Shown one piece after another: positions 6,980-50,276 of a DNA stretch of 64,000 bases (position 1 is its first letter; each line of letters starts with the position of its first letter). The stretch is from Pseudogemmobacter lacusdianii. Lineage in GTDB: Bacteria > Pseudomonadota > Alphaproteobacteria > Rhodobacterales > Rhodobacteraceae. The position numbers were made by a program, and so were the translations under genes. The notes under the pieces are model-generated. The model worked only from the letters and a program-made list of their open reading frames with translations, searched no databases and was not told the DNA's origin. Location: contig NZ_JAVDBT010000011.1 of NCBI RefSeq assembly GCF_030848395.1, forward strand, positions 1 to 64,000, read 5' to 3'.

Positions 6980-7690
6980 ATGACGATTGCACTTTGGCAT
7001 AGCGATGAAGACCTTGATCGCCTCGACGCGGTGCTTTCGGCGCTGCCCGAAGACAACGATCCGATGATCCTTGCCGAATTCGATGGCTTTTGTGCGGGTC
7101 TCATCACTTGTCCGGAAATGATTTCGCCGTCTGTCTGGCTTGCCAAGGTCTGGGGGACTGGCGGCCCGCCGGAGTTCGGCAGCGCCGAAGAGCTTCAGGC
7201 GGCTCTCGATCTCATCATGGCGCATTACAACCGCGTTGCCGGAATGCTGATGATCCCGGGGGAGTATTTCCCTGTCCTCGACGAGGATCAGCGCAACGGG
7301 GACATCATCTGGGAGTTCTGGATGATGGGTTTCGTCGCGGCGATGCGACTGCGGCCTGACGCCTGGGATCTGATTGAGGACAGCAAGGACCGGCGGGCGA
7401 AGAAGGCGCTGGATCTCGCAGGCAAACTCTCGCGTATCTCGACCGGGTTCGCCGAAGGGAAAGGCTGGAAGGCTACGAAATTGTCGCGCGAGGCCCATGA
7501 TCTGATCCCCGATATGGTCGAGGATCTGAACGCCTTCGCCAAGGCGCATACGGCTAAATCCATGCCCGGTCTGCCGCTGGCCGCCAATCTGACTGCTGCG
7601 CCCTCAGCTGCATCGAAGCCCGGTCGCAATGATGCGTGCAGCTGCGGTTCAGGGCGCAAGTACAAGAAATGCTGCGGCGCTGTTCACTGA
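6980..7690 (+). CDS. YecA/UPF0149-family protein with SEC-C zinc motif
   Basis: The 236-residue protein has an all-helical UPF0149-like body (LDRLDAVLSALPEDNDPMI, EFDGFCAGLITCPEMI, EYFPVLDEDQ) and ends in a SEC-C motif (NDACSCGSGRKYKKCCG), the CxC-x8-CC zinc site also found at the end of SecA. YecA proteins bind metal through this tail and may touch SecA or ribosomes; the actual role is not settled. The gene ends two bases before the convergent parE stop. Confident at family level. Confidence 0.85.
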   Translation: MTIALWHSDEDLDRLDAVLSALPEDNDPMILAEFDGFCAGLITCPEMISPSVWLAKVWGTGGPPEFGSAEELQAALDLIMAHYNRVAGMLMIPGEYFPVLDEDQRNGDIIWEFWMMGFVAAMRLRPDAWDLIEDSKDRRAKKALDLAGKLSRISTGFAEGKGWKATKLSREAHDLIPDMVEDLNAFAKAHTAKSMPGLPLAANLTAAPSAASKPGRNDACSCGSGRKYKKCCGAVH

Positions 7691-18702: not shown

Positions 18703-19114
18703 TATATGCTTCGTCTCCCTGCCAATGCTATAATGGGAGAATAGCCCTTTCGAAAAGTTGGGCAAGCTATTGCTGAGGACAGCAGATCAGCGGGCGAAAG
18801 CGCAGATTCAGGTGGCCACGCGGTGGAGAGATCATGCCCCGCGTTAGGTTGGAACAGCACCTCAGGGTCGAAAATCTCGGTGTACAGTGTCGGCGCTGAT
18901 CGTCAGCAATGGGCTCTTTGCACCAACGCACGCTACAGTAGGTGCGATCCGCATTGGCATGACGGACCTCGTCGGCCATTTGTCGCGAGCAGGCGTTCGC
19001 ACCTGCATCCGTGCGCACTCAGGTCGACGATGCCCATCTTGGCCCGAAACGTGATACAGTCTCGTGGTCGGCATGACCGAAGAAGGGTGGGGCCGGTGGA
19101 CTGGAGGTAGTCCC
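18703..19114. other. Intergenic region upstream of the recombinase
   Basis: About 410 bp. It holds the promoter of the minus-strand helical protein and a copy of GTCAGCAATGGGCTC near 18,901. Small frames on both strands lack recognisable domains and ribosome sites. Confidence 0.35.
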
Positions 19115-19747
19115 ATGCCCGTTGATTTTCTTCCTATCCTTCGTCCCGTCCGTTCGCCGTGGAACAAGGGACGTATTGTTGGCCAGAAACGCCCGCTTCT
19201 ACCCCGGCATGTCTGGTCCATACGCGTTCGCCTCGAGATGGCAGGCAATTTACGTGACCTAGCGCTGTTCAACATGGCCGTGGACAGCAAGTTGCGTGGT
19301 TGCGATCTCGTCAGTCTCAGGGTCCGGGATGTATTCGCTGCTGGGCGTGTCAAGGAACGAGCGTCGATGATCCAGAGCAAGACCGCGAAGCCGCTCCGGT
19401 TCGAAATCACCGAGACGACGCGGCTGTCTCTCGAGCGCTGGATCCACGACCCCGAAATGATCGGCCTGGAGTTCCTTTGGCCCAGCCGAATCCATGGCAG
19501 TCCGCATCTGTCGACGCGACAGTATGCCCGGATCGTCCGGGGATGGGTTGTATCGGTCGGACTGGAGCCTAGCGCCTACGGTACACATTCGATGCGGCGA
19601 ACCAAGGTCGCGCAGATCTACAAGAAGACCGGAAACCTACGGGCGGTCCAGCTGCTGCTTGGCCATACGAAGATGGACAGCACGGTGCGCTATCTCGGTG
19701 TCGACATCGAGGATGCTTTGACGCTCTCTGAGGGGATCGACCTTTAA
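19115..19747 (+). CDS. Short tyrosine recombinase
   Basis: The 210-residue protein is a catalytic-domain-only tyrosine recombinase. The first Arg lies in DSKLRGCDLVSLRVRDV, the HxxR box in YGTHSMRRTKVAQIYKK, and the second His with the nucleophile Tyr in LLGHTKMDSTVRYLGV. The usual N-terminal core-binding domain is absent; instead there is a short WNKGRIVGQKRP leader shared with the second copy at 41,744. Such short integrases are common in Rhodobacteraceae. It borders the reverse-transcriptase operon and may have brought it in. Confidence 0.85.
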   Translation: MPVDFLPILRPVRSPWNKGRIVGQKRPLLPRHVWSIRVRLEMAGNLRDLALFNMAVDSKLRGCDLVSLRVRDVFAAGRVKERASMIQSKTAKPLRFEITETTRLSLERWIHDPEMIGLEFLWPSRIHGSPHLSTRQYARIVRGWVVSVGLEPSAYGTHSMRRTKVAQIYKKTGNLRAVQLLLGHTKMDSTVRYLGVDIEDALTLSEGIDL

Positions 19748-20309: not shown

Positions 20310-22379
20310 TTAAGAGTAGCCACTCCTCAACCGTTTCTTTTGGATGAGCCGCAGCAAATCGATCTTCTCCCAATCGACAAACCATGGATTCTTCTCCATG
20401 TATTCGAGCATATCGTCTATAGCTGCGTTGCTGGCCTTGTTGGGGAGGGACCGCCCTGGCTTCTCCGCACTCCTCATAAGTTCGTTGAACCTGCTGATGA
20501 CGTCCCTGTATAGTTGCCTGCGTTCTATGCGAGCAATGTGAGGGCAGGACAGTAAATCCAGAAATAGGTGCAAGTTTTCTGAATTAAGCCGCAAGTCTGC
20601 GTCGTTTAATATCTTTGTTTTCGCAGACTCAAACACCAATGATACCGCCTTCTCGCTCCCAGCCATCCTGCTTAACACGAAGATCTTTGTTATGAACTCG
20701 AAGTAGTTTAAAGAACTCTCAATTCCGACAGTTGCGGACACCAGCTCTTCAATATGTTTCGCATTGTAGTCGAAGGCAGTAAGAGCACAAAGAATATTCA
20801 AAACTTCAATCGGAACTGCGAAATTGTTTCCAACTAGTTCCGCAATGGCGGATGAAGTCATGAGCTTTGAGATGGCCAGTTGCAGCCTCTCTTGCATGTG
20901 AAGGAAATGGTCCAAGTCAGCTTTCTTTAATGCCTCTGCTGACAGAAGAAGAATTGTAGCGACATCTAGTGAGCTGGGAACTGAAGGTGCAAGGGTGTAC
21001 ATGTGCATGCACATGTCGACTGCTGTTGAGATGTATGAAGCTAGGTTTGACTTATATTCAAGACGTACCTCCTCTTCAGACTGGTCGCTCGTTGCTACTA
21101 GATGACTTTCAAAAACTCTTTGGGATTCTAGTACCCGCTGAATGCGTGATCTCAGGGCGGCAATGAGAAACCCAGTAACACTCGAGTAATCACTATTCGC
21201 CATGAAACATGCGCGACGGAGGCTATTAGGGAAGTCGCTGACAGGAGGAGTGGATCTGGCCTGTGACTTTACTCCCGAAATACGTCTTCCATCCCTCCAT
21301 ATAGTCTCAATAGGTGCATCGAAGAACCGATCTCTTATTTGCTTAGCCTCAGATATCGCCATTGATTTTCTTGTAAAGAAGGGACGGCGGGCAATCTCTG
21401 ACTTAGACTTGTTTAGGCTCATTTTGTAATCATCGAGGCTACGTTCAAAAGTCTCAATGATGTCTCTTCTTACGCGATCATTGTTATAGAAAATATATAT
21501 GTTGTCCACATACCTAAAGACGTCGTAGTCTTTTCCCCTAATGTAAGGGCCAGCGCCATTCGCTCCAGGGGCTCGACCTAATGCCGCCTCGACATCAACA
21601 TCAATCCTGTCTAGGATTATTTCCGCAAATATTCGGCTGACTTCAGGTCCGATGATGATCCCATTAGTCTCGTTGTAGTTCATAAGCTGCATTAATCGAT
21701 CAAAAGACCCGCCAAAAGTTTCCGCGTTAGTGTCGCTTTTAGCTTCATCTTTCGACTTGGTGGCCCATGCAATTGAATGGGTGTAGATGCTGTCGAAGCA
21801 TTTACTCACATCTATGGAGGCCATGCTGGAGTACTTAATTTCAAGATTGGAAAAAATTGATGAATCAAAAAACTCATGAAGTCGCCTAAAGCTTCGGTAG
21901 GAGAAAATACTTACGGGATGCTTCGCAGACTTATCACGATCTGCGATCTCGATCATTTGGGATCGGTAGGCGAATGCGTTTTCGTTGACACCTTCAACAT
22001 AGTAGTGGCTAGCGATCTGGTATGGGCGGCGAATTGAGAAATTGCCGCGATTACAATAGTGAGAAATAAGGCTGTGATACTTCCGATAGAAAGTCACTAC
22101 CTCAAGCTGTGAGCGTGGGTGGGGCAAGCTGAGCCGACGCAATGATCCTTCATCTTTTGAAATCTTGTAGCTAAAGGGAATTGAGAATTGCTTGGATTTT
22201 GATGGCGCCAGGAATTCGTCTATCAATACCTGTAGCGTCGCCGGAAAGTCTCCAGATCTCATATTTAAGTAGAAGCCATCATTCGAAATAAGTACTGGAA
22301 TCTCCGAGGGAGTGGTTTCGCTAAGAAGGGCGCGGTTCCAATCATTCTTTTGAATGATAATGTTCTTGGATTTTCTCAT
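20310..22379 (-). CDS. drt3b: Antiphage reverse transcriptase, Drt3b-like
   Basis: The 689-residue protein has a reverse-transcriptase core: motif A in SSMASIDVSKCFDSIYTHSI, a motif B-like GIIIGPEVSRIFAEIILDRI, and the catalytic box RYVDNIYIFYNND, with YVDN instead of YxDD. The C-terminal ~330 residues are helical and specific to the family. A second reverse transcriptase encoded directly upstream with a 4-base overlap fits the DRT3 pair (UG3 plus UG8). DRT systems block phage by making DNA. AT-rich codon use differs from the plasmid backbone, implying horizontal acquisition. Confidence 0.8.
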   Translation of the reverse strand: MRKSKNIIIQKNDWNRALLSETTPSEIPVLISNDGFYLNMRSGDFPATLQVLIDEFLAPSKSKQFSIPFSYKISKDEGSLRRLSLPHPRSQLEVVTFYRKYHSLISHYCNRGNFSIRRPYQIASHYYVEGVNENAFAYRSQMIEIADRDKSAKHPVSIFSYRSFRRLHEFFDSSIFSNLEIKYSSMASIDVSKCFDSIYTHSIAWATKSKDEAKSDTNAETFGGSFDRLMQLMNYNETNGIIIGPEVSRIFAEIILDRIDVDVEAALGRAPGANGAGPYIRGKDYDVFRYVDNIYIFYNNDRVRRDIIETFERSLDDYKMSLNKSKSEIARRPFFTRKSMAISEAKQIRDRFFDAPIETIWRDGRRISGVKSQARSTPPVSDFPNSLRRACFMANSDYSSVTGFLIAALRSRIQRVLESQRVFESHLVATSDQSEEEVRLEYKSNLASYISTAVDMCMHMYTLAPSVPSSLDVATILLLSAEALKKADLDHFLHMQERLQLAISKLMTSSAIAELVGNNFAVPIEVLNILCALTAFDYNAKHIEELVSATVGIESSLNYFEFITKIFVLSRMAGSEKAVSLVFESAKTKILNDADLRLNSENLHLFLDLLSCPHIARIERRQLYRDVISRFNELMRSAEKPGRSLPNKASNAAIDDMLEYMEKNPWFVDWEKIDLLRLIQKKRLRSGYS

Positions 22380-23593
22380 TTTTTCCAGCAGCTAGATAAG
22401 TTTTGGAGTGCTTCGGGCGAAAAATTAAAATGCTTCCGATCCTGAACGTGCCTTTGAAGGTCAAGGGATATAATTGCACGGCGGGTGTGTGTTGAAAGGT
22501 GTGATAATCTAAGCCTATGGTAAAGTTGAAACTTTTTGTTCATCATGCTTGCGCGGTAAAAATGCATAAGGCTTGATAGTGCTTCCGAGGGCAGATCGAT
22601 TTCAGAGTAAGTATTGCATAGTCCCGCGCTCATTTTGCGCCCCCTGCTACTGTCCCAAAAGGAGTACCCGCTGTTTAGAAGTAGAAACCTTTGTCGGAGA
22701 TCTTCCTCGTTTCCGTCTTTCAAGAACTGCAATAATGTATGGACGAAGCGCTTCTTTCTTTTGACGATCTTGGATGGTGCAACATCTAGATTCACTGGCC
22801 TATGGCCAGTCTTATTAATTTTCGCACCTATAGAGAACCTATATCCAAGATAATTAAAAGAGCCATGATCCTCAGGTACGTGCAACGTTATAATATCACG
22901 CTTTTCAGGCGCTGAGTTGAATTCAAGCTCCTCTGGCAGGATACACTTTAATTCGTCGATGTAATCTTTTGCAGGGCGTCGGCTGCTGCAAACCATAATT
23001 ATGTCATCGACGTAACGCCTGTAGAAGTGAACCCCAGGAAGTGAGTTGGCAAATTTATCAAGATGCTCCATAAGATAGTACTCGGCTAGCGAGGAGGATA
23101 GCGAGACTCCAGTTGGGACGCCTTTGACACGACTCCTTGACCAATTGATGTAGTGTTCCAGGTTCCTGCGTAGTGCATAGGTGCTTTTTGTTCCTCTACT
23201 GGCACAGTGAAGAATTTTATCTATATCAACGCTTTCATAAAATTTTTTGATGTCTAAGCGAATGATCGTCATAGGAAGCCCTTCTGAGCAGATGGACTTC
23301 AGGGCAGAAATCGTTTCAACACGATTCGTAACCCTTGCTTTGGTCAGGTCAGCAAAATCTTTGTTCACTTTTCTGATGAGAATTGCCGTTTCAAGATCAT
23401 CAGGTTTACACATCGTTCGACCGTTCTTCGTGAAGACCTTAAAGGAATACGGCTGTATATTGCTGTGAAGCCTTGACTGAATGCGGTCAATAACATCCGC
23501 TTGCTGCTGCGCGCTTGCGATCCCATATGCTGCCCAGTCGTCGCGGGTAATTAGATTTTCCAGGCTATATTTTGTGTAAGCGAAGGTTCTCAT
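22376..23593 (-). CDS. drt3a: Antiphage reverse transcriptase, Drt3a-like
   Basis: A 405-residue reverse transcriptase with all core motifs: LITRDDWAAYGI near the start, motif A in MTIIRLDIKKFYESVDIDKI, motif B GVPTGVSLSSSLAEYYLMEH, and the intact catalytic box HFYRRYVDDIIMVCSS. No maturase or integrase-like domain is attached, so it is not a group II intron protein. It leads the operon and overlaps the next gene by ATGA. In DRT3 this partner would copy the RNA template. A palindrome sits just upstream of the start (23,612). Confidence 0.82.
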   Translation of the reverse strand: MRTFAYTKYSLENLITRDDWAAYGIASAQQQADVIDRIQSRLHSNIQPYSFKVFTKNGRTMCKPDDLETAILIRKVNKDFADLTKARVTNRVETISALKSICSEGLPMTIIRLDIKKFYESVDIDKILHCASRGTKSTYALRRNLEHYINWSRSRVKGVPTGVSLSSSLAEYYLMEHLDKFANSLPGVHFYRRYVDDIIMVCSSRRPAKDYIDELKCILPEELEFNSAPEKRDIITLHVPEDHGSFNYLGYRFSIGAKINKTGHRPVNLDVAPSKIVKRKKRFVHTLLQFLKDGNEEDLRQRFLLLNSGYSFWDSSRGRKMSAGLCNTYSEIDLPSEALSSLMHFYRASMMNKKFQLYHRLRLSHLSTHTRRAIISLDLQRHVQDRKHFNFSPEALQNLSSCWKK

Positions 23594-39268: not shown

Positions 39269-41371
39269 TTACTGTGCGTCTTGAGGCGAGAATGCCTCGA
39301 ATAATCCGACCCAGCGATCCACCACATCCTGCGGAATCGCATTCAATCCTCGTGTCAGCATTCGCTGTTTGACTCTGATCGACAGCGGCACTTTCCAGTG
39401 CTCGTCAAGGTTTACGCCCTGCGCCCGCGCCCAGGCTTCGATCTGGCCAACAATCGGCTGGCCTGCCTGCACAACATCCGCAAACCTTACGTCTGGATCG
39501 CGCTCCATTCGGTCCAACTCATCGGCGATGATGTCGAACGGTATTAGGTCTTCAATCTCTGCACGCTCGTAGCCAACGTGGTCTGCCACGTTCAGCACCT
39601 TCTCCGGGCTTTCCGCATACAGGCCCTGAGCCAAGTTGCCGCGCATCTGGCGGCCAGGCCCATCATCGTCCAACAGCATCATCGGCAGCACTTCATCGCG
39701 ACCGGTGAGGATGCTTGCCACCACCCGCGCCGTTTTCGTTCCTCCAGACGGTGGGAAAACCAGCTCTCGCTTCGGTGTGATTTTTGCTCCGGAGACCAAC
39801 AGCGCCTTGATTGCGGTCAGGTAGTGCTGGTCTGACGGGCCCTCAACCAGCACGGGTCGACAACCAACAAGCAGGCTTTCTGCAACGCTCAGGTTCAGTG
39901 CGGAATGGACGGCATACGCCGCCCCTGCCTGTTCGTCGCGGCCCTCGCTGTGGCGCAGGTTTGGCGTTGCCTTCGTGGTCCCGTCTGCTGACACATACAC
40001 CTTCCGAGCCCGCTCAAGTCGATCCGCATCGACAAGGAAGGGCGAATGGGACGTATAGATGATCTGGTTTGTCTTGGAGAGACTCTCAAAGAACGCGGAA
40101 AGGTCACGTTGGGCAAGCGGGTGCAGCGACACGCCTGGTTCGTCTAAAAGTAGGACCGCCTTTTTGTGGTCGCCCCGGCTTTCGACGAGAAAGACGAGAT
40201 AGAAACTCAGGAACCATTGCAAACCCGTGCTCCGGTTCTCAAGTTCGACCTCCGTCGGACGCCGGTCGTCAGCAACCCAAATGCGAAAGTGATTTCCGTC
40301 TGCCTCGAACCGGAACCGGTAGTCTCCTTGCTTCCACCAATCCCGAAAACGAGTGGTCAGCGTTGCACCCGCTGATTGAAGCAAGATTGAGCGTGTCCGC
40401 TTCTGCTCCGCGATTACCGCAATCTCATCAGCGGTTGGTTCTCGGTTCTCGCCATTCACCTCTTTAAAGTCACGACCGAGTTCGAGGATTTCCTTTGCCT
40501 CCAACTTCACGAAGCTAAACAGCACCCGCAGCGTTCTCGTCTTTGCTGCTTCTTTCGCACCCAAATCCAAGCGCGCGAGGTTCTCAACGACATGCGGCAG
40601 GTAGATTTCTGAGTCGAGATTGCCGTAGTTGGAGTAGTAGACAAAAGGCGGGATGGCTTTGACCACCGCGTCGGTGACGCCCTCGACCTCACCTGGCGGC
40701 AGCGTCGTGAGGACGTGAAGTTGGTCGCCTAGCTCCGAAGACAGTTGACGGACCATAGGGACAATAACGCTAGTCTCTGCCGGTTCTGCTGGTATCAGCG
40801 CATCGACGGCAGTTATGGCAGCGCTCAACGGAGCCGCGCTAAGGTTCTCAGCCTCGGGCAGCGCGTCGGCGGCCGCCCTGAGGCCGTGGACCAACTGAGG
40901 CTGCAACTCGGCTTCTTTCTTGAGTGCCTGTGCTGCCCCAACAGCATCTGCTGCCCCGGTGAGTTTGCTTGCGAGCCACGCTCGCGCGACAGTCGTTGTC
41001 CGTTGGTGCTTTGGAAACTCGATGTAGTAGGTACCATCGAAAAAACGCGTAACACGGACTGTCTCGGCAATCTCGGGCGAGACACCGGCGGCACGCGCGA
41101 TGGCAGCGCCAGAGACCCCGGTACTAAATTCTGCCTCGATGAAGTGATAGTCGCCCGGCGCGTTACGGATTTCTCCGAACATTGTTTTTGGGTAATCTGA
41201 AGTAGGTTGAATCTCACCGTCTTGGGCAGGCTTGAGTTTCCAAAGTGGCAGTAGCAAGTTCGTCTTGCCAGACTCATTGACCCCAATCAGCGCTGTCACA
41301 TCGTCGGCATCAAGCCAGCCGCTGTCCGACACGGACCGGAAATTGGTGACTCTGAACCTGGTCAACTTCAT
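39269..41371 (-). CDS. OLD-family ATPase/TOPRIM nuclease
   Basis: The 700-residue protein begins MKLTRFRVTNFRSVSDS and has an SMC/ABC-type Walker A (ALIGVNESGKTNLLLPLW), Walker B with D-loop (KKAVLLLDEPGVSLHPLAQR) near residue 405, and H-loop (QIIYTSHSPFLVDADRL). A TOPRIM domain follows (GCRPVLVEGPSDQHYLTAIK near 510; MLLDDDGPGRQMR near 570). This is the overcoming-lysogenization-defect architecture, as in P2 Old and GajA. No UvrD-like GajB partner is adjacent, so it is a class 1 stand-alone enzyme. A nuclease role against phage DNA is likely. Confidence 0.85.
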   Translation of the reverse strand: MKLTRFRVTNFRSVSDSGWLDADDVTALIGVNESGKTNLLLPLWKLKPAQDGEIQPTSDYPKTMFGEIRNAPGDYHFIEAEFSTGVSGAAIARAAGVSPEIAETVRVTRFFDGTYYIEFPKHQRTTTVARAWLASKLTGAADAVGAAQALKKEAELQPQLVHGLRAAADALPEAENLSAAPLSAAITAVDALIPAEPAETSVIVPMVRQLSSELGDQLHVLTTLPPGEVEGVTDAVVKAIPPFVYYSNYGNLDSEIYLPHVVENLARLDLGAKEAAKTRTLRVLFSFVKLEAKEILELGRDFKEVNGENREPTADEIAVIAEQKRTRSILLQSAGATLTTRFRDWWKQGDYRFRFEADGNHFRIWVADDRRPTEVELENRSTGLQWFLSFYLVFLVESRGDHKKAVLLLDEPGVSLHPLAQRDLSAFFESLSKTNQIIYTSHSPFLVDADRLERARKVYVSADGTTKATPNLRHSEGRDEQAGAAYAVHSALNLSVAESLLVGCRPVLVEGPSDQHYLTAIKALLVSGAKITPKRELVFPPSGGTKTARVVASILTGRDEVLPMMLLDDDGPGRQMRGNLAQGLYAESPEKVLNVADHVGYERAEIEDLIPFDIIADELDRMERDPDVRFADVVQAGQPIVGQIEAWARAQGVNLDEHWKVPLSIRVKQRMLTRGLNAIPQDVVDRWVGLFEAFSPQDAQ

Positions 41372-41743: not shown

Positions 41744-42373
41744 GTGTCAGAGACGTCAGAAACGACATGGAACAAGGGGCGTGTGGTCGGAAAAAAGCCT
41801 CCCCTGACGCCGGATCAGGTTGCCCTGATCCGGCTGCTCCTGCGCCAGGAGAAGGCGCAGCGCGATCTGGCATTGTTCAACACCGCCCTCGATACCAGCT
41901 TCCGAGGCTCGGACTTGGTGCGCCTGCGGGTCTCGGACGTCGCCACCGCGGCAGGGGTGCGCGAGATCATCGAAATCCGGCAGAAGAAAACCGAAAGCCG
42001 CAACGTCCGCCCGGTTCAGGTTCGGCTGTCCGAGAATACACGTGACAGCCTACGCGCCTATCTCGCTGCCGCTGATAAACCTCTGCACGACTGGCTCTTT
42101 ACCGGACAGGGGCCCAGATGGTCCCACAACCATCTCAGCGAAAGCCAGCTCTGGCGGCTGTTCAAATCCTGGCTCGAAAAAGCACGTCTCGATCCCAGTC
42201 TCTATGGGCTGCACTCCCTGCGCCGGACCTTCCCAACCCATATCTATCAGCAAACCGGCAACCTACGGGCAGCCCAACTTCTACTCGGCCATGCCAGCAT
42301 CGAGAGCACCAAGGATTACATCGGTACGGAGCAGGCTGAAGCTCTAGAAATTGCGCGGAGGCATCACCTCTGA
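41744..42373 (+). CDS. Short tyrosine recombinase (second copy type)
   Basis: Starting at GTG 41,744, after AAGGAAG, the product has 209 residues: TTWNKGRVVGKKPPLTPDQV leader, first Arg in LDTSFRGSDLVRLRVSDV, HxxR in GLHSLRRTFPTHIYQQ, and LLGHASIESTKDYIGT with the second His and nucleophile Tyr. It is paralogous to the recombinase at 19,115 and likewise lacks the core-binding domain. It lies between the OLD gene and the methylase cassette, as a marker of island insertion. Confidence 0.85.
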   Translation: MSETSETTWNKGRVVGKKPPLTPDQVALIRLLLRQEKAQRDLALFNTALDTSFRGSDLVRLRVSDVATAAGVREIIEIRQKKTESRNVRPVQVRLSENTRDSLRAYLAAADKPLHDWLFTGQGPRWSHNHLSESQLWRLFKSWLEKARLDPSLYGLHSLRRTFPTHIYQQTGNLRAAQLLLGHASIESTKDYIGTEQAEALEIARRHHL

Positions 42374-42376
42374 GCC

Positions 42377-42628
42377 ATGCAGACCTATCTCGAAAAGCGC
42401 CATCCAGCAAAAAACATCGCCCGGTTTTATCGGATGGCCGTCATGCCCAACCTGTTTGGGGAATGGTCGCTTTATCGGGAATGGGGTCGCATCGGACAGG
42501 ACGGTCAGGTCCGCTTGGACTGGTTTGAAGAAGAGCACCACGCCATCGCCGCCCTGCTCGCGTTAGAAAAGTCCAAACGACAGCGCGGATATTGGGTCAT
42601 GCCTCAGCAGCTTTCAATGTTTGATTGA
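42377..42628 (+). CDS. WGR-domain protein
   Basis: The 83-residue protein is essentially one WGR domain (RFYRMAVMPNLFGEWSLYRE, WGRIGQDGQVRLDWFEEEHH), a fold thought to contact nucleic acid; in PARP enzymes it links DNA ends to catalysis. It starts three bases after the recombinase stop, so the two are probably co-expressed. Part of the same sequence is fused to the ParB scrap at 1,371-1,445. Confidence 0.85.
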   Translation: MQTYLEKRHPAKNIARFYRMAVMPNLFGEWSLYREWGRIGQDGQVRLDWFEEEHHAIAALLALEKSKRQRGYWVMPQQLSMFD

Positions 42629-42674
42629 TAACTGCCCATTATCACCGTACATCCAGACTAAACGGGGAGATATT

Positions 42675-42953
42675 ATGATCCATCCTGGAATCCTGGTCCG
42701 GCGAGAATGCCTTGGCCCCAATGCTCTTTCCGTCACTGAGGCTGCGCAAGTGCTCGGGTGTAACCGGCAGACCCTTAGCAATCTCCTCAATGGACGATCT
42801 GGTATTTCTCCGGAGATGGCCCTGCGTTTGGAGAAAGCCTTCGGCACATCCGCCCGCGCTTGGATGGAACGGCAACTGAATTACGAACTGGAAACGGTCA
42901 TGGCACGTGCCGATGAGATCGAAGTCCAGCCATTTACGAGGCAGACCCCATGA
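42675..42953 (+). CDS. HigA-like XRE-family regulator
   Basis: From the ATG at 42,675 the product has 92 residues: IHPGILVRRECLGPNALSVT, EAAQVLGCNRQTLSNLLNGR, SGISPEMALRLEKAFGTSAR, the HigA/VapA-type helix-turn-helix. No HigB toxin is adjacent; instead the gene overlaps the methylase start by four bases (ATGA). This suggests a role as the controller of the methylase cassette, like C proteins of restriction-modification systems. Confidence 0.85.
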   Translation: MIHPGILVRRECLGPNALSVTEAAQVLGCNRQTLSNLLNGRSGISPEMALRLEKAFGTSARAWMERQLNYELETVMARADEIEVQPFTRQTP

Positions 42954-45673
42954 ACCCGGTTGAAATTGAACAGGCCATTTCGGACCTCGCCGAAGCGCCC
43001 TTCGACGCCACAGAATTCCCCTACGCCTTCCTTGAAGCCTTCGGCCGCAAGGAAACGGAAATTAAGAAGCTGCGCAAAGGCGATTCCAACAAGTCGGACC
43101 TCGGCGGCGTTCTGCAACGCAACAACATCCACATCGCGACCTGCGCGCCTGGTGAGGTGTCTCAGACCCTCGCGGCACTCAAGGCCAGCCCCGCCACGGC
43201 CAAGCACAAGGCCAAGTTCATCCTCGCAACCGATGGGCAGACCTTCGAAGCGGAAGATCTGATCGGCGGCGACACGGTGGCTTGCGCCTACCCAGATTTT
43301 CCGGACAGCTTTGGCGTTTTCCTGCCGCTCGCGGGCATCTCGACCGTCAAGCAAATCAAAGAAAGTGCCTTCGACATCAAGGCAACTGGCCGCCTGAATC
43401 GGCTCTATATGGAGTTGCTGAAGGACAACCCGGACTGGGGGAAAATCGATCGGCGGCCCGATATGAACCATTTCATGGCACGACTGATCTTCTGCTTCTT
43501 CGCCGAAGACACCGATATCTTTGCCTCATCTCGGCTGTTCACCGGCACGATCGAGCAGATGTCGAACCGTGATGGCACCAACACGCATGAGATCATCAGC
43601 GAAATCTTCCGCGCAATGAACGTGCCGCTAGCAGACCGAGCCGATGCCAATCTACCTCGGTGGGCCGATGCCTTCCCCTATGTGAACGGCGGGCTGTTCT
43701 CTGGCTCTACCGAAGTGCCGCGCTTCTCCAAGATCGCTCAACGTTATCTTAGCCATATCGGTGGGCTGGACTGGACCAAGATCAACCCCGACATCTTCGG
43801 CTCGATGATTCAGGCTGTGGCGGACGAAAGCGAACGTTCTGCCCTCGGCATGCACTACACCTCCGTTCCTAACATTCTGAAGGTGCTGAACCCACTGTTT
43901 CTCGACGACTTGAACGCGGCGCTGGAAGAGGCGGGCGACAATGCTCGCAAGCTCCTGAACTTGCGTAACCGCATCGCGAAAATTCGGGTGTTCGATCCAG
44001 CTTGTGGGTCCGGAAACTTTCTGGTCATTGCCTACAAGCAACTTCGTGCGATCGAGGCTGAGATCAACCGCCGTCGTGGCGAGGCCGATCGTAAGACAGA
44101 CATCCCCCTGACAAACTTCCGAGGCATTGAGCTCCGGGATTTTTCCGCCGAGATCGCTCGTCTGGCGCTAATCATTGCGGAATATCAGTGCGATGTGACT
44201 TATCGCGGACAGAAAGAAGCTCTGGCCGAGTTTCTGCCGCTAGACAGCCAAAACTGGATCACCTGCGGTAACGCGCTGCGGCTGGATTGGTTGTCAATCT
44301 GCCCGCCGACTGGGACCGGTGTGAAGTTCCAAGCCGAAGATCTGTTTCAAACACCACTGGATCAAGCTCAGATTGATTTTGAGAACGCAGGTGGAGAAAC
44401 CTATATTTGCGGAAACCCACCATATGTCGGTGATAAAAATCAAACTATAGACCAAAAATCAGATTTAAAGCACATTGCAGGTGGTCGTAAAGACTATAAA
44501 GCCGCAGATTATGTCACCGGGTGGATATGGAAGGCATCTGATTTCATAAAGGTTGAAGGATCTTTTGCGTTCGTCACAACGAATTCGATTTGTCAAGGTG
44601 TGCAAGTTCCAATAGTGTGGGGGGATTTGGAAAGCAAGGGTCAAGAAATATATTTTGCACACAGAAGCTTTTATTGGAAGAACAATGCAAGCAATAATGC
44701 AAACGTAATTTGTGTTATTGTGGGCGTGCGAAACAAGAGCTCTCAAAAAAAATATATCTATGATGCGGGAATAAAAAGAGAAGTTTCAAACATCAACGCA
44801 TATTTAGTTGATGGTCCGAGCCTTATAGTTTTGAAGCATCCCTCCCCAATTGCCGCGTTACCTCAAATGGTGGCAGGAAATATTCCAAGGGACCAAGCAA
44901 ATTTCATGCTTAGCCATGAGGAGCGTAATCATATTATCGCTTCCCACCCGGGAGCTGAGGCTATTATTCGGAGAATTCAAGGCTCAAGAGAATTTATAAA
45001 TGGTATTGAGAGGTACTGTTTGTGGATTCCCGATCACTTAAGTCAATTTGCATGGGAAATACCAGAGGTTGCTGAGCGTCTGAAAAGAATTGTAGAGTAT
45101 AGACGATACGGAAGTGAAAGGGGGAAACTTGGCTTGGACACACCACATCGCTTTGAAAGGACAATAGTCGCTAAAGAAAGAACTATTATTGTTCCGAGAG
45201 TTTCATCCGAACGTAGAGAATATCTTCCTGTCGGCGTCCTTGAAAAGGATATAATTGTATCCGATGCTGCGCAGGCAATTTACGATGCGCCGTTATATGT
45301 CATTTCAATAGTCGGGTCTAAGTTGCATCGTGCGTGGGTCGATGTCACTGCTGGGAGAATGAAGTCAGATTTTCGGTATTCTAGTGGAGTATGTTATAAT
45401 AGCTTCCCTATACCTAAACTTACCGAGAAAAACCGCAAAGACCTAACCCGCTGCGCCGAAGATATTCTTCTGGCGCGCGAGGCGCATTTCCCAGCCACAA
45501 TTGCTGATCTCTATGATCCTGAGAAGATGCCGGCCAACCTCCGTGCTGCCCATGATCGCAACGACGAGACACTAGAGCGCATCTACATCGGTCGCCGTTT
45601 TAAGAACGATACCGAACGACTCGAAAAGCTCTTCGATATGTATACGAAGATGACTATGAAGGTGCCCGCCTGA
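42950..45673 (+). CDS. MmeI-like class I adenine DNA methyltransferase
   Basis: The 907-residue protein has an N-terminal helical domain, SAM-binding motif I (VFDPACGSGNFLVIAYKQLR, ~residue 350) and catalytic motif IV (YICGNPPYVGDKNQ, ~residue 490), the N6-adenine type. A target-recognition region follows (~470-825). The layout resembles MmeI/YeeA-type enzymes, but I see no D...ExK nuclease in the N-terminus, so cutting must come from a partner. DNA from about 44,360 to 45,420 is strikingly AT-rich against GC-rich flanks, a sign that the recognition region was exchanged. It should mark host DNA for the cassette. Confidence 0.85.
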   Translation: MNPVEIEQAISDLAEAPFDATEFPYAFLEAFGRKETEIKKLRKGDSNKSDLGGVLQRNNIHIATCAPGEVSQTLAALKASPATAKHKAKFILATDGQTFEAEDLIGGDTVACAYPDFPDSFGVFLPLAGISTVKQIKESAFDIKATGRLNRLYMELLKDNPDWGKIDRRPDMNHFMARLIFCFFAEDTDIFASSRLFTGTIEQMSNRDGTNTHEIISEIFRAMNVPLADRADANLPRWADAFPYVNGGLFSGSTEVPRFSKIAQRYLSHIGGLDWTKINPDIFGSMIQAVADESERSALGMHYTSVPNILKVLNPLFLDDLNAALEEAGDNARKLLNLRNRIAKIRVFDPACGSGNFLVIAYKQLRAIEAEINRRRGEADRKTDIPLTNFRGIELRDFSAEIARLALIIAEYQCDVTYRGQKEALAEFLPLDSQNWITCGNALRLDWLSICPPTGTGVKFQAEDLFQTPLDQAQIDFENAGGETYICGNPPYVGDKNQTIDQKSDLKHIAGGRKDYKAADYVTGWIWKASDFIKVEGSFAFVTTNSICQGVQVPIVWGDLESKGQEIYFAHRSFYWKNNASNNANVICVIVGVRNKSSQKKYIYDAGIKREVSNINAYLVDGPSLIVLKHPSPIAALPQMVAGNIPRDQANFMLSHEERNHIIASHPGAEAIIRRIQGSREFINGIERYCLWIPDHLSQFAWEIPEVAERLKRIVEYRRYGSERGKLGLDTPHRFERTIVAKERTIIVPRVSSERREYLPVGVLEKDIIVSDAAQAIYDAPLYVISIVGSKLHRAWVDVTAGRMKSDFRYSSGVCYNSFPIPKLTEKNRKDLTRCAEDILLAREAHFPATIADLYDPEKMPANLRAAHDRNDETLERIYIGRRFKNDTERLEKLFDMYTKMTMKVPA

Positions 45674-45674
45674 A

Positions 45675-46088
45675 ATGTTTGCGCGTGTGCCATATACAGC
45701 CCTCAATGCCAGGCAGCGCGAGAACTACAATTTTCATAAGTTCGCAGCTCGCATGGCAGACTACGGGTTCAATTGCATAAGATTGACGGATGATTGGCAG
45801 GGTGCCGATTTCATCGCGATCCACATCGACGGCGAAACGTTCTTGAAGGTCCAGTTGAAAGGGCGGCTCATTATCGACAGGAAATATCTCGGCAAAAAAA
45901 TCTACGTTGCCTTTCTAAACGGCAACGACGCCTACCTTTATGATCATGATGCTTTTGTCCGACACCTTGAAGTGAATGGGCTGATCGGAGATGGCAGCGT
46001 GAGCTGGCATGTTCAGGGCTTCCGCAGCTGGCCCAGCCCTCCTTCTTGGGCCATTTCTTATTTGCAAGATTTCAGGATTTCCACATGA
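45675..46088 (+). CDS. Small PD-(D/E)XK-like nuclease candidate
   Basis: The 137-residue protein starts NARQRENYNFHKFAARMADY and contains DDWQGADFIAIHIDGETF followed by LKVQLKGRLIIDRKYLGKKI. The D-x(n)-QxK arrangement (Asp in GADFIA, then VQLKGR) is the core of PD-(D/E)XK nucleases with Gln replacing Glu, as in some restriction enzymes. It begins one base after the methylase stop and overlaps the helicase by four bases. Nuclease activity is inferred from motif and context only. Confidence 0.6.
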   Translation: MFARVPYTALNARQRENYNFHKFAARMADYGFNCIRLTDDWQGADFIAIHIDGETFLKVQLKGRLIIDRKYLGKKIYVAFLNGNDAYLYDHDAFVRHLEVNGLIGDGSVSWHVQGFRSWPSPPSWAISYLQDFRIST

Positions 46089-48127
46089 CCAAATCCATTC
46101 CTTCTGTCTCCGTTTCCTATCCAGCAAATGGAAGCTCCACCAAGTCCAACGAGCTTGGAATGCGCACTATGCAGGAGCGCGCCTATGAAAAGCGCGGCGA
46201 GCAATACCTACTGATCAAGTCGCCGCCCGCCTCTGGGAAAAGCCGGGCACTGATGTTCATCGCGCTCGACAAGCTGCACAATCAGGGCCTGAAGCAGGCG
46301 ATCATTGTCGTCCCGGAAAAGTCAATCGGATCCAGCTTTGCTAATGAGCCTCTGTCTAAGTTCGGGTTTTATTGGGACTGGACCGTGGAACCGCGCTGGA
46401 ATCTGTGCAACGCGCCGGGAGGCGACAGCGGCAAAGTCGGCGCACTTGGCAAGTTTTTAGAAGGTGACGATCGTATCCTCGTCTGCACCCATGCAACCTT
46501 CCGCTTCGCCGTAGACAAGTTTGGCATCGAAGCATTCGATGACCGCCTTATCGCCGTTGACGAGTTCCACCACGTCTCAGCCAACCCAGATAACAAGCTG
46601 GGGGCGCACCTAGGCACGCTTATCACACGCGATAAGGTGCATGTGGTTGCCATGACCGGATCGTATTTCCGAGGTGATACTGAAGCCGTGCTGTCGCCCG
46701 AAGATGAGGCGCGCTTTGAGACTGTTACCTATACCTATTATGAGCAGCTCAGCGGCTACACATGGCTGAAGACGCTCGACATCGGATATTTCTTTTACAG
46801 TGGCTCCTACGCCGACGAGCTTCTCAAAGTTTTGGATCCGAACGAGAAGACCATCCTGCACATCCCGAATGTCAACTCGCGTGAAAGCACGAAGGACAAG
46901 CATCGGGAAGTCGAGCATATCATCGACGCCTTAGGTGACTGGCAGGGTACCGATCCTGCTACGGGTTTCCAGCTGGTGAAGCGTCCCGATGGCAAAGTGC
47001 TGCGAATTGCGGACCTCGTGGATGATGATACCGCCAAGCGGGACAAGGTCTCGGCGTCACTGAAAGATCCAGCCCAAAAGAACAATCGTGACCATGTCGA
47101 CATCATCATCGCGCTTGGCATGGCGAAGGAAGGCTTCGACTGGATTTGGTGTGAACATGCGCTGACCGTGGGCTATCGCTCCAGCCTAACCGAGATCGTT
47201 CAGATCATCGGACGCGCCACACGCGACGCCAAAGGCAAAACACGTGCTCGCTTCACCAACTTGATTGCAGAACCTGACGCGTCTGAAGAGGCGGTGCGTG
47301 AGGCCGTCAACGACACATTGAAGGCTATCGCCGCCAGTCTGTTGATGGAGCAGGTGCTGACACCGAAGTTCGAGTTCAAACCAAAGATGCCTGCAAACAC
47401 TGCGCAGGATGGCTTCGACTATGGCGAAAACGGCTACGATGACAGCAAGTGCAACGTAGGATTCAATCAACAAAAGGGCATCTTCCAGATCGAGATCAAA
47501 GGGCTCATCCAGCCCAAGAGCCCAGAAGCAAATCGCATCTGTCAGAATGACCTGAACGAGGTCATCACCACCTTCTTACAGGATAAGACCGCGATCGAGC
47601 GTGGGCTTTTTGACGCCGAAATGGTGCCGGAGGAGCTGACCCAGGTGAAAATGGGGAAGATCGTTCGCGACAAGTATCCTGAGCTGGACGAAGCCGACCA
47701 GGAGGCGGTGCGTCAGCACGCCATTGCTGCGATGAACTTCACGCAACAGGCCAAGAAGACTCTTCTTGGTGATGGCACGGACGCCCCCTCAAACACAGCT
47801 TTTGTTGACGGTGTTCGCCAGTTCGCTATGAGCGTCAAAGAGCTCGATATTGACCTGATCGACCGGATCAACCCGTTCAGCGAAGCCTATGCGATCCTCG
47901 CCAAAACCATGAGCGAAGAAAGCCTCAAAGAGGTTGCCGCCGTGATCGAGGCCAAGAAGATCAAACTGTCGCCGGAAGAGGCGCGTGACCTCGTCAAGCG
48001 CGCCGTGAAGTTCAAGCAAGAACGCGGGCGGCTTCCGTCTTTGACTTCCGCTGACGCGTGGGAGAAACGCATGGCCGAAGGCGTGGCCTTCCTTGCCCGG
48101 ATGAAGCAGGAGGCGATGAATGGCTAA
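46085..48127 (+). CDS. SF2 DEAD/DEAH-type helicase
   Basis: The 680-residue protein has Walker A (LLIKSPPASGKSRALMFIAL), motif II as DEFH (LIAVDEFHHVSANPD), motif III (VVAMTGSYFRGD) and motif VI (EIVQIIGRATRDAKGKTRAR), the layout of restriction-type SF2 translocases. A helical C-terminal ~230 residues is family-specific. I start it at the ATG at 46,085 (ATGA overlap). In the cassette it would translocate on unmodified DNA and bring a nuclease to it. Confidence 0.88.
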   Translation: MTKSIPSVSVSYPANGSSTKSNELGMRTMQERAYEKRGEQYLLIKSPPASGKSRALMFIALDKLHNQGLKQAIIVVPEKSIGSSFANEPLSKFGFYWDWTVEPRWNLCNAPGGDSGKVGALGKFLEGDDRILVCTHATFRFAVDKFGIEAFDDRLIAVDEFHHVSANPDNKLGAHLGTLITRDKVHVVAMTGSYFRGDTEAVLSPEDEARFETVTYTYYEQLSGYTWLKTLDIGYFFYSGSYADELLKVLDPNEKTILHIPNVNSRESTKDKHREVEHIIDALGDWQGTDPATGFQLVKRPDGKVLRIADLVDDDTAKRDKVSASLKDPAQKNNRDHVDIIIALGMAKEGFDWIWCEHALTVGYRSSLTEIVQIIGRATRDAKGKTRARFTNLIAEPDASEEAVREAVNDTLKAIAASLLMEQVLTPKFEFKPKMPANTAQDGFDYGENGYDDSKCNVGFNQQKGIFQIEIKGLIQPKSPEANRICQNDLNEVITTFLQDKTAIERGLFDAEMVPEELTQVKMGKIVRDKYPELDEADQEAVRQHAIAAMNFTQQAKKTLLGDGTDAPSNTAFVDGVRQFAMSVKELDIDLIDRINPFSEAYAILAKTMSEESLKEVAAVIEAKKIKLSPEEARDLVKRAVKFKQERGRLPSLTSADAWEKRMAEGVAFLARMKQEAMNG

Positions 48128-49310
48128 TACATTCACGGACGAAGATGATGCCCTCTTGTCAGAGCTTGGCATCGAAATCGAGAAAAAGACGCAAGCTTTA
48201 CGGACCCCACGTGAAGAGCGGATCATCGCTGGATTCGAAGATATCCAGAAGTTCGTATCCGACCATGGACGTGTCCCGCAGCATTCAGAAGATGGAGATA
48301 TCTTCGAACGGCTTTATGCTGTTCGTTTGCAGCGCCTGCGGGAGCTGCCCGAAGCCGTCGATCTTCTCACGGGGCTGGACACTGGCGGCCTGCTAACGGG
48401 AAATAACTTCGCGCCGATCTCTGAAGATCTGGATGATGACGCACTGCTTGCGGCACTCGGTATCACGGTTGAAGCATCGCCCCTCACTCAGCTGAAGCAT
48501 GTCCGATCGAACGCAGAGAGAAAAGCTGTGGACGACATTGCCAGTCGGCAACGCTGCACGGATTTTGAGACTTTCAAGCCGCTTTTCGAAAAGGTTCAGC
48601 GTGAGCTGGATTCCGGCGAGCGTGAAACCCGCCCGTTCGAACTGAAAGCCGAAATTCAAAAAGGCCGCTTCTTCATCGTAGAAGGTCAAAAGGCATATGT
48701 CGCCGAGATGGGCGAACAGACCCTGACCGACCAAGGCCGAACTGATGCGCGCTTGCGCGTCATCTTCGACAACGGCACCGAAAGCAACATGCTGATGCGA
48801 TCGCTTCAGCGCGCCTTGAATAAGGATGAATCTGGGCGGCGGATCACCGAGTCTGTGGCGGGACCGCTCTTCGCAGACGCGCCGGAAGAGGGCGACAGCA
48901 CCACTGGCACAATCTACGTTTTGCGCAGCAAATCCGACCATCCCATGGTGGCTGAGAACCGGGAGCTGGTCCACAAAATTGGCGTCACTACCTTGGGAGT
49001 CGAAAAGCGGATTGCGGGTGCACAGCTACAGCCCACATTCCTCATGGCTCCAGTGGAAGTTGTCGCGACCTATGAGCTCTACAATATCAACCAAACTCGG
49101 CTTGAGAACCTGATCCATCGGATTTTCGGCAGTGCACAGCTCGACATCGAGATTGCCGATCGGTTCGGAAGACCCGTAATTCCGCGCGAATGGTTCCTGG
49201 TACCGCTCTTCGTGATTGATGAGGCCGTTCAGAAGATCAAGGACGGAACGATCACAAAGTTTCACTATGACCCAGAGACGGCCAGTCTCGTCCTGCGGCC
49301 AGACAAATAA
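48120..49310 (+). CDS. GIY-YIG/T5orf172-family nuclease
   Basis: The 396-residue protein has an N-terminal helical part (residues 1-150) and a GIY-YIG-type domain at ~265-370: GTIYVLRSKSDHPMVAENRE, LVHKIGVTTLGVEKRIAGAQ and NQTRLENLIHRIFGSAQLD, with the conserved Arg and Glu of the fold, then PREWFLVPL. This is the T5orf172 variant. It overlaps the helicase by eight bases and ends the operon. It is probably the second nuclease or the DNA-cutting subunit. Confidence 0.8.
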   Translation: MANTFTDEDDALLSELGIEIEKKTQALRTPREERIIAGFEDIQKFVSDHGRVPQHSEDGDIFERLYAVRLQRLRELPEAVDLLTGLDTGGLLTGNNFAPISEDLDDDALLAALGITVEASPLTQLKHVRSNAERKAVDDIASRQRCTDFETFKPLFEKVQRELDSGERETRPFELKAEIQKGRFFIVEGQKAYVAEMGEQTLTDQGRTDARLRVIFDNGTESNMLMRSLQRALNKDESGRRITESVAGPLFADAPEEGDSTTGTIYVLRSKSDHPMVAENRELVHKIGVTTLGVEKRIAGAQLQPTFLMAPVEVVATYELYNINQTRLENLIHRIFGSAQLDIEIADRFGRPVIPREWFLVPLFVIDEAVQKIKDGTITKFHYDPETASLVLRPDK

Positions 49311-49613: not shown

Positions 49614-50276
49614 ATGCACACACGATTTTCGAACCAGTTGATTTTTGATCTTGAGGCCGTGCTGTCACCTCCACGGTTCAGCTCTTATCTGCGTGAAACC
49701 GCGGGCGATCGCCAGAGAGCGATGGATCTCTACTGCTGGAACACCGATGTGTCTGCCGCTTTCTACGTCATGCTGCAGTACTGCGAACTGTCGATCCGAA
49801 ACGGAGCAGTCGAGGCGATTGAGGCGGTTTTCGGGGGCAACTGGCATCTCAACCGCGGTTTCGTCTACACGCTCCCAGCACCAGCAAGGGGCTACAGGCC
49901 CAGAGAAGATCTGACAGATTGCGCAGCGAAGCTTCCCACAGCGGGAAAGGTCGTCGCCGAGCTGAAGTTCGCCTTTTGGCGCTTCCTGTTCTTGAAAGGC
50001 CAGCAGCCTCGGATCTGGGATCCCCACCTCGCGGCGACATTTCCGGGATATGACAAAGCACTGACGCTGTCAGAAGCCCGCGCCAGATTGTTCGATGACA
50101 TCGACGAGGTCCGGAAGCTGAGAAACCGGATCGCGCATCACGAGCCCATCTTCGCTCGAAATCTGCATGAAGATCACCAGCGCATTCGCAGGATCATAGA
50201 ATGGCGCCGTCCAGACGTGGCCGCCTGGCTGGACAGCACGCAGCAGATCACGGCTCTCCTCTCCCGTCGGCCTTGA
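49614..50276 (+). CDS. Abi-like/HEPN-domain protein
   Basis: The 220-residue helical protein matches the Abi_2-like pattern: ETAGDRQRAMDLYCWNTDVS, AFYVMLQYCELSIRNGAVEA, a WxF patch (LKFAFWRFLFLKGQQPRIWD) and DEVRKLRNRIAHHEPIFARN. The last contains RNRIAH, the Rx4H ribonuclease motif of HEPN domains. Such proteins act in abortive infection by cutting RNA. It follows the methylase cassette in the same orientation but behind its terminator. Confidence 0.7.
   Translation: MHTRFSNQLIFDLEAVLSPPRFSSYLRETAGDRQRAMDLYCWNTDVSAAFYVMLQYCELSIRNGAVEAIEAVFGGNWHLNRGFVYTLPAPARGYRPREDLTDCAAKLPTAGKVVAELKFAFWRFLFLKGQQPRIWDPHLAATFPGYDKALTLSEARARLFDDIDEVRKLRNRIAHHEPIFARNLHEDHQRIRRIIEWRRPDVAAWLDSTQQITALLSRRP

Follow-up and report, generated by a model that had tools for sequence, protein, structure and literature searches.

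The closest described relatives of the operon analyzed here belong to the dnmA(yeeA)-yeeB-yeeC cluster of Bacillus subtilis, in which an MmeI-like methylase without a nuclease motif is followed by a superfamily 2 (SF2) helicase and a T5orf172/GIY-YIG protein. In the portions of the two reports available to us, yeeB-like helicases and yeeC-like T5orf172/GIY-YIG proteins are the commonest neighbors of dnmA, in the first and second downstream positions (PMC9973331), DnmA is grouped with MmeI homologs lacking a nuclease motif and a suggestion of a Type I-like system is quoted (PMC7261158), and an uncharacterized family is mentioned as a possible further member of the cluster in some bacteria (PMC7261158, PMC9973331). 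The role of this gene trio is disputed, with no effect in B. subtilis and an effect reported in Vibrio, and is now testable. We analyzed a stretch of 64,000 nucleotides (nt) from Pseudogemmobacter lacusdianii (contig NZ_JAVDBT010000011.1, positions 1 to 64,000; hereafter the window), which carries on its plus strand, at 42675-49310, an operon of five genes encoding a HigA-like regulator, an MmeI-like methylase, a protein of 137 amino acids (aa), an SF2 helicase, and a GIY-YIG protein. This operon is a variant of the dnmA-yeeB-yeeC kind with a changeable cargo gene: its core trio is widespread and already known, and the two remaining genes, HigA at the front and the small nuclease-like gene at the center, are additions that can be swapped.

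The five genes are co-oriented and tightly packed. The HigA and methylase genes overlap by 4 bases, the 137-aa gene follows the methylase gene after a 1-base gap and overlaps the helicase gene by 4 bases, and the helicase and GIY-YIG genes overlap by 8 bases (Table 1). An earlier note, made from the letters of this DNA alone, had placed these genes head to tail and proposed that they may form an undescribed restriction-type defense system. Coordinates and families are borne out, and the family matches uphold a restriction-type make-up. The claim of an undescribed system fails, since the methylase-helicase-GIY core is the published cluster (PMC9973331, PMC7261158, in the portions available), even if the literature searched gave no formal system name for it and no single named system among the PADLOC 2.0.0 family models covers the methylase, helicase, and GIY-YIG protein. 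What sets the operon of the window apart from dnmA-yeeB-yeeC is HigA in front and a predicted PD-(D/E)XK cargo between methylase and helicase; the accessible parts of the literature searched contain no description of a cargo slot or a HigA controller on this chassis. The exact five-gene set was found together in five loci, the window and four others (L002, L128, L129, and L152), all four from Rhodobacterales, and because the order recurs in them, the arrangement goes beyond chance.

Table 1. Features of the operon and of its upstream region in the window
Feature	Position	Strand	Basis or remark
Palindrome TTGATAA-N6-ATTATCAC, candidate HigA operator	42625..42645	+	Recurs upstream of HigA in relatives
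HigA-like helix-turn-helix (HTH) protein, likely operon repressor, no HigB adjoining	42675..42953	+	TIGR02607, 78.6 bits
MmeI-like predicted adenine methylase, DnmA type, 907 aa, target recognition domain (TRD) at about residues 621-824	42950..45673	+	Pfam, motifs, MmeI structure 5hr4
Exchanged stretch of the methylase gene, NPPY codons through TRD	44424..45403	+	BLAST ends, not mapped crossovers
Predicted PD-(D/E)XK protein, 137 aa, cargo in the methylase-helicase slot	45675..46088	+	Predicted structure and invariant residues
SF2 helicase, YeeB-like, 680 aa	46085..48127	+	DEAD, ResIII
T5orf172/MUG113 GIY-YIG protein, YeeC-like, 396 aa	48120..49310	+	Pfam and residues kept in 98 of 98 homologs

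With profiles made from proteins of the window and of plasmids, we mapped the genes of 57 helicase loci, comprising the window and 56 other places for which longer stretches were taken (helicase matches at E <= 1e-100 only). A methylase match lies upstream of the helicase in 56 of them, although L114 retains only a 37-residue remnant; L116 has none within its stretch. The GIY match stands directly behind the helicase in all 57, being limited in L102 to its first 61 residues, with gaps from -4 to 183 nt. The core order is also seen in plasmids of Pseudomonadota and of Staphylococcus, Rhodococcus, and Ligilactobacillus, that is, in Pseudomonadota, Bacillota, and Actinomycetota. At the same threshold, the helicase profile matches 23 of the 295 genomes sampled at the family level, 17 of 385 at the class level, and 22 of 398 at the phylum level, these samples sharing a few genomes. 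The B. subtilis control genome matches MmeI_Mtase, a comparison at the level of the family.

The helicase is encoded downstream of the methylase as in dnmA-yeeB-yeeC, with one cargo gene in between in the window and directly adjacent in 25 of the 57 loci, where the gap is below 100 nt. In the other 31 of the 56 loci with a methylase, the gap reaches at least 100 nt (in L114 measured to the remnant), and an open reading frame of at least 60 aa is present in 30 of these 31. In 24 of the 31 enlarged gaps, no more than 50 nt separate the methylase match from the start of the first slot gene, and in 22 the distance from the end of the last slot gene to the helicase match is equally short. The slot genes form many unrelated clusters. 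Twelve of 20 slot representatives match Pfam at E <= 0.01, giving a list of families rather than an enrichment over matched controls: SLFN_AlbA_2, PDDEXK_4, T5orf172 (below cut-off), RhuM, YhcG, DarT, GmrSD_N, Abi_2, and Zeta toxin, to which are added HTH_3 with Peptidase_M78 from the degenerate L114, as well as NucS_C and Fic, which, like the unmatched proteins of L183 and L133, come only from loci chosen by the small protein. A DarT-like and a GmrSD-type gene are both cargo in L086. On a helicase tree of 62 rows (L116 omitted), the slot must have switched between occupied and empty at least 12 times, and supported branches force 8 of these changes. In addition, L146 and L148 have, between the small gene and an AlbA-type gene that follows, a stretch matching helicase residues 1-37/39, and a similar helicase remnant was read by eye in L014; these remnants look like a trace of insertion. 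To judge from these comparisons, the methylase-helicase junction is a variable cargo slot with turnover.

Homologs of the core proteins were aligned when they covered at least 85% of the model and had no stops, which left 81 methylases, 100 helicases, and 98 GIY-YIG proteins. The methylase of the window has five MmeI Pfam domains (MmeI_N, hel, Mtase, TRD, and C; MmeI_Mtase E 4.1e-113) and matches the solved MmeI structure 5hr4 at E 3.3e-144, in an alignment that begins at its residue 87. The motifs DPACGSG and NPPY are kept, the last NPPY position being Tyr in 70 and Phe in 11 of the 81 homologs. Both motifs fit an adenine methylase, for which N6-methyladenine (m6A) activity is predicted. Compared with the Type IIL enzyme MmeI, the methylase and target recognition domains are the same, whereas a D...(E/Q)xK nuclease motif is not conserved in the N-terminal part and the helicase and GIY partners are separate genes: no such motif occurs among the charged and amide residues kept in more than 85% of the 81 homologs between residues 30 and 124.

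The TRD stands out from the rest of the methylase. Between the window and Pseudogemmobacter faecipullorum (L128), the helicase is 98% identical and the N- and C-terminal methylase domains are 100% and 92% identical, with only 28% identity in the TRD. At the DNA level, similarity to five relatives ends at 44424 in three of them and at 44476 and 44727 in the remaining two, and returns at 45399-45403 in all five. The same is observed on a larger scale, in 1950 pairs whose helicases share 70-98% identity: mean identity is 41.6% in the TRD, compared to 70.3% in the N domain, 68.5% in the Mtase domain, 83.2% in the C domain, and 64.1% in the GIY-YIG protein. On these alignments, the target recognition domain is exchanged between relatives. 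As a separate observation, two annotated MmeI fragments precede the methylase in a Ligilactobacillus salivarius plasmid (L216, 2289-4985); one fragment is oriented the opposite way, and the arrangement might represent an invertible recognition domain.

The helicase matches DEAD and ResIII of Pfam, both just above their cut-offs, and has an intact frame with Walker A and DEFHH motifs. Its structural model is poor, with a predicted local distance difference test (pLDDT) score of 67.3, and supports no more than an SF2 assignment; a search of solved structures gave two matches at E 0.032. The GIY-YIG protein matches MUG113 and T5orf172 above cut-offs, and Y266, K286, R297, E329, and W358, putative catalytic residues among them, are present in 98 of 98 homologs, its profile giving no significant match in the search of solved structures. 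The best PADLOC matches are PbeA (E 1.8e-5) for the helicase and PDC-S57 (E 0.0015) for the GIY-YIG protein, and none is found for the small protein.

The front gene scores well above the cut-off of the HigA equivalog TIGR02607 (47.7 bits). A HigBA toxin-antitoxin pair was ruled out, as no HigB adjoins HigA, whose upstream neighbor encodes a WGR-domain protein and whose downstream neighbor is the methylase gene. The palindrome of Table 1 is exact in L013, L128, L129, and L152 and has one mismatch in L002; in the six HigA-methylase loci it sits 30-50 nt 5' of the start codon. The 200 nt shown upstream in L128 are the same as in the window, and the other four palindrome loci diverge further upstream. 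The distant loci L096 and L100 keep the half-site GATTATCACTATAC. With up to 2 mismatches, 0.02 matches are expected in the window, for a pattern that was derived from this very site, and the genome itself has a single exact copy, at the operon, besides two sites with 2 mismatches. A promoter-like -35 element, a 17-nt spacer, and a weak -10 element overlap the palindrome. The recurrence of this candidate operator suggests that HigA represses the operon, which backs the role of controller given to it in the earlier note. Elsewhere, the front position is taken by VapC-like, ribbon-helix-helix-like, or other HTH genes (our own reading, with VapC named in some records), and the front gene is therefore exchangeable too.

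Taken together, the sequences display a packed core of constant order, conserved putative catalytic residues, TRD exchange, turnover in the slot, and a recurring palindrome before HigA. We favor, with moderate confidence, the view that this is a restriction operon of the dnmA-yeeB-yeeC type, guided by its methylase and dependent on a translocase, whose cargo gene can be exchanged and whose first gene encodes a repressor. The methylase would read and mark a short site, probably with m6A on a single strand, in line with reports on DnmA and MmeI. Upon meeting unmarked DNA, the methylase would engage the helicase, which would move along the DNA, and the GIY-YIG partner would cut. HigA would bind the palindrome and hold the operon down, much like RptR on a Type I island, and the PD-(D/E)XK protein in the slot would be an additional nuclease, broadening the defense or serving as its backup, and would be dispensable for the core reaction. 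The operon would accordingly belong to the anti-virus (defense) type, with cleavage and defense deduced from protein families, conserved residues, and gene packing. Two ideas of the earlier note bear on this scheme. Its statement that the methylase has no visible nuclease domain holds at the sequence level, for residues 30-124 of the 81 homologs. Its assignment of cutting to the small protein and/or the GIY-YIG protein stands in part: a nuclease fold is predicted for the small protein and the GIY-YIG protein keeps Y266, R297, and E329 in every homolog, but a general cutting role of the small protein is improbable, because 52 of the 57 core loci do without it and its place is taken by a different gene in a close relative.

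Several observations weigh against this restriction scheme. Translocation by the helicase is argued solely from its motifs, and of the 98 homologs only 7 have the second tyrosine of the GIY motif, with His at this position in 84, Leu in 6, and Phe in 1. A stricter promoter scan did not list a promoter overlapping the palindrome, and HigA is found immediately before the methylase in just 3 of the 57 census loci (the window, L096, and L100). In B. subtilis, single deletions of yeeB or yeeC left infection by three phages unchanged (PMC9973331); phages show no depletion of the DnmA motif, dnmA was without effect on transformation, and the authors propose a non-functional relic or inactive system, as far as the available text goes (PMC9973331, PMC7261158). 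These negative tests are what favors the strongest rival, a relic or regulatory module. In this view, which follows the proposal for B. subtilis, the methylase was kept for gene regulation and the helicase and GIY-YIG protein no longer act in restriction. The exchange of recognition domains also fits a regulatory methylase. Nevertheless, such exchange together with a cargo of defense genes speaks against a relic, as do the putative catalytic residues maintained throughout the GIY-YIG proteins and the intact frame and motifs of the helicase. Moreover, deletion of the dnmA and yeeB homologs in Vibrio crassostreae raised sensitivity to some phages, as cited in the portion of PMC9973331 available. 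We regard the relic or regulatory module as unlikely, and the family, with its ongoing exchange of recognition domains, its probable repressor and operator, and the bay within its operon, offers material on which the restriction scheme can be examined.

Searches of Pfam, PADLOC, and NCBIfam (E <= 0.1) and of PHROGs (E <= 0.001) gave no match for the 137-aa protein, and a search of solved structures with its profile returned only an insignificant match (E 0.71). Its structural model is good (pLDDT 93.2, predicted template modeling score 0.86). The best Foldseek match of the model is the homing endonuclease I-Ssp6803I (E 2.7e-4), and Hjc resolvase fits similarly (Z 8.9, compared to 8.7 for I-Ssp6803I, the best Z being modest); SPARDA nucleases, the N-terminal domains of Eco15I and NhoI, and then PvuII rank lower. 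A PD-(D/E)XK fold is confidently predicted from this model, which makes the protein a putative nuclease. Relatives were collected with a profile of six close relatives, as a nine-row alignment was insufficiently conserved, and the best 80 of 144 loci were retained. After removal by hand of near-copies and broken copies, alignments of 75 rows and of 67 rows (the window and 66 of the 80 loci) were obtained, and E16, D45, Q60, and K62 are invariant in the latter. The helicase core accompanies the small protein in 37 of the 80 loci, and in L140 a methylase and the small gene lie where the contig ends. Resolution is poor in the tree of the 75 relatives, on which the in-cassette label requires 8 changes, of which 3 are forced.

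On the reading of the earlier note, the five genes are a self-contained system and the small protein is needed for cutting, either as the only cutting subunit or as one of them. The packed operon with its overlapping stops and starts, the predicted nuclease fold with four invariant residues, and the recurrence of the same set in four other loci agree with this proposal, to which we give little credence on the following grounds. Within the census, the small protein is restricted to five loci (the window, L073, L076, L084, and L106), and among plasmid records it matches 8, compared to 264 for the helicase under different E limits. A Falsirhodobacter algicola plasmid, whose record is not among these 8, keeps HigA and the palindrome and encodes a helicase 96% identical to that of the window, but in its slot, which extends across the start of the record, lies a relative of a 294-aa family (55% identity over 232 residues). 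In a Klebsiella plasmid with a 75% identical helicase, the slot is without a gene, and solitary relatives of the small protein exist without the core. By these comparisons, the 137-aa protein is one cargo of the slot.

Solitary relatives follow varied genes: eight of ten neighbors scanned are above family cut-offs (RuvA, RecG, NadA, topoisomerase A-type, biotin carboxylase, C5 methylase, AlaRS-type, and UDG). In L169, L175, L179, L180, L181, and L202 (around position 7000), they stand directly behind housekeeping genes for RuvA, RecG, NadA, a topoisomerase A-type protein, biotin carboxylase, and an AlaRS-type protein, with a 4-base overlap in L179 and L181. These varied neighbors and the top Foldseek match would suit a free-standing mobile, homing-like endonuclease that settled by chance in the junction and has no role in defense, which is the least credible of the alternatives, given that Hjc fits equally well, the in-operon copies retain overlapping stops and starts, the slot accepts many unrelated defense genes too, and an intron-type origin was rejected (no group I intron in the 13 scanned of the 42 solitary loci; tRNAs in 5 of the 42, none within 1 kb).

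Within the restriction scheme that we favor, it is possible, and we suggest it only tentatively, that the junction is a dedicated cargo bay, whose toxin or nuclease would be produced along with the methylase-helicase machine and might be triggered by it once a phage evades or blocks restriction. The 137-aa nuclease would then be one of many interchangeable second strikes. The anticodon nuclease PrrC, which is made together with its Type I host system, is the model for this idea. The bay holds known defense and toxin genes beside groups without Pfam match (259, 294, 208, 195, and 238 aa); the latter are candidates for screening. Apart from this, a comparable layout on a different chassis is annotated in a Sphingopyxis plasmid (L009, 1083-6459), where an AbrB-VapC pair and then a type ISP restriction enzyme precede a distant relative of the 137-aa protein.

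Among Type I systems, restriction operons that are regulated and carry embedded defenses are already known (PMC12255303, PMC11411939), and toxins embedded in restriction-modification operons have been surveyed earlier (PMC3710099), all sources being available to us in part. The RptR-regulated island with embedded DarTG2 also has its repressor first, a palindromic promoter site, and a foreign defense gene within the restriction operon, but its chassis is a Type I hsd system, RptR binds 6-bp palindromes, and the text available has no HigA-like label (PMC12255303). TgvAB, in the Type I operon of VPI-2, likewise comprises foreign defense genes embedded in a restriction operon, on a different chassis and with the embedded pair protecting without HsdR activity (PMC11411939, in the part available). 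A Type I HsdRMS system is not indicated for the operon, as neither HsdS nor HsdR is among the family matches listed for the five proteins (for the methylase in PADLOC, the best 25 of 44) and the Type I methylase match is low (18.6 bits). The PADLOC match of the methylase to REase_MTase_IIG reaches 951 bits; DISARM, BREX, and MADS were rejected as mere cross-matches of this protein.

Further defense-like genes flank the operon on both sides. An AAA_15/OLD-type ATPase is encoded at 39269-41371 (minus strand), and on the plus strand at 49614-50276 lies a gene for an Abi_2-like protein, below the Pfam cut-off and matching PD-T4-5 of PADLOC (E 1.1e-16); an Abi_2 gene stands behind the GIY gene of Falsirhodobacter as well. 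Two overlapping reverse-transcriptase genes at 20310-23593 (minus strand) match Drt3b (E 2e-181) and Drt3a (E 2.8e-84) of PADLOC and probably constitute a DRT3 defense system. Read by eye, the genes at 15-37 kb and 53.5-57 kb resemble those for type IV secretion and for ParA, ParB, and a replication protein, which suggests a conjugative plasmid or similar element. Short tyrosine-recombinase genes (Phage_integrase) occur at 41744-42373, just upstream of the operon, and at 19064-19747, and may bear on its mobility.

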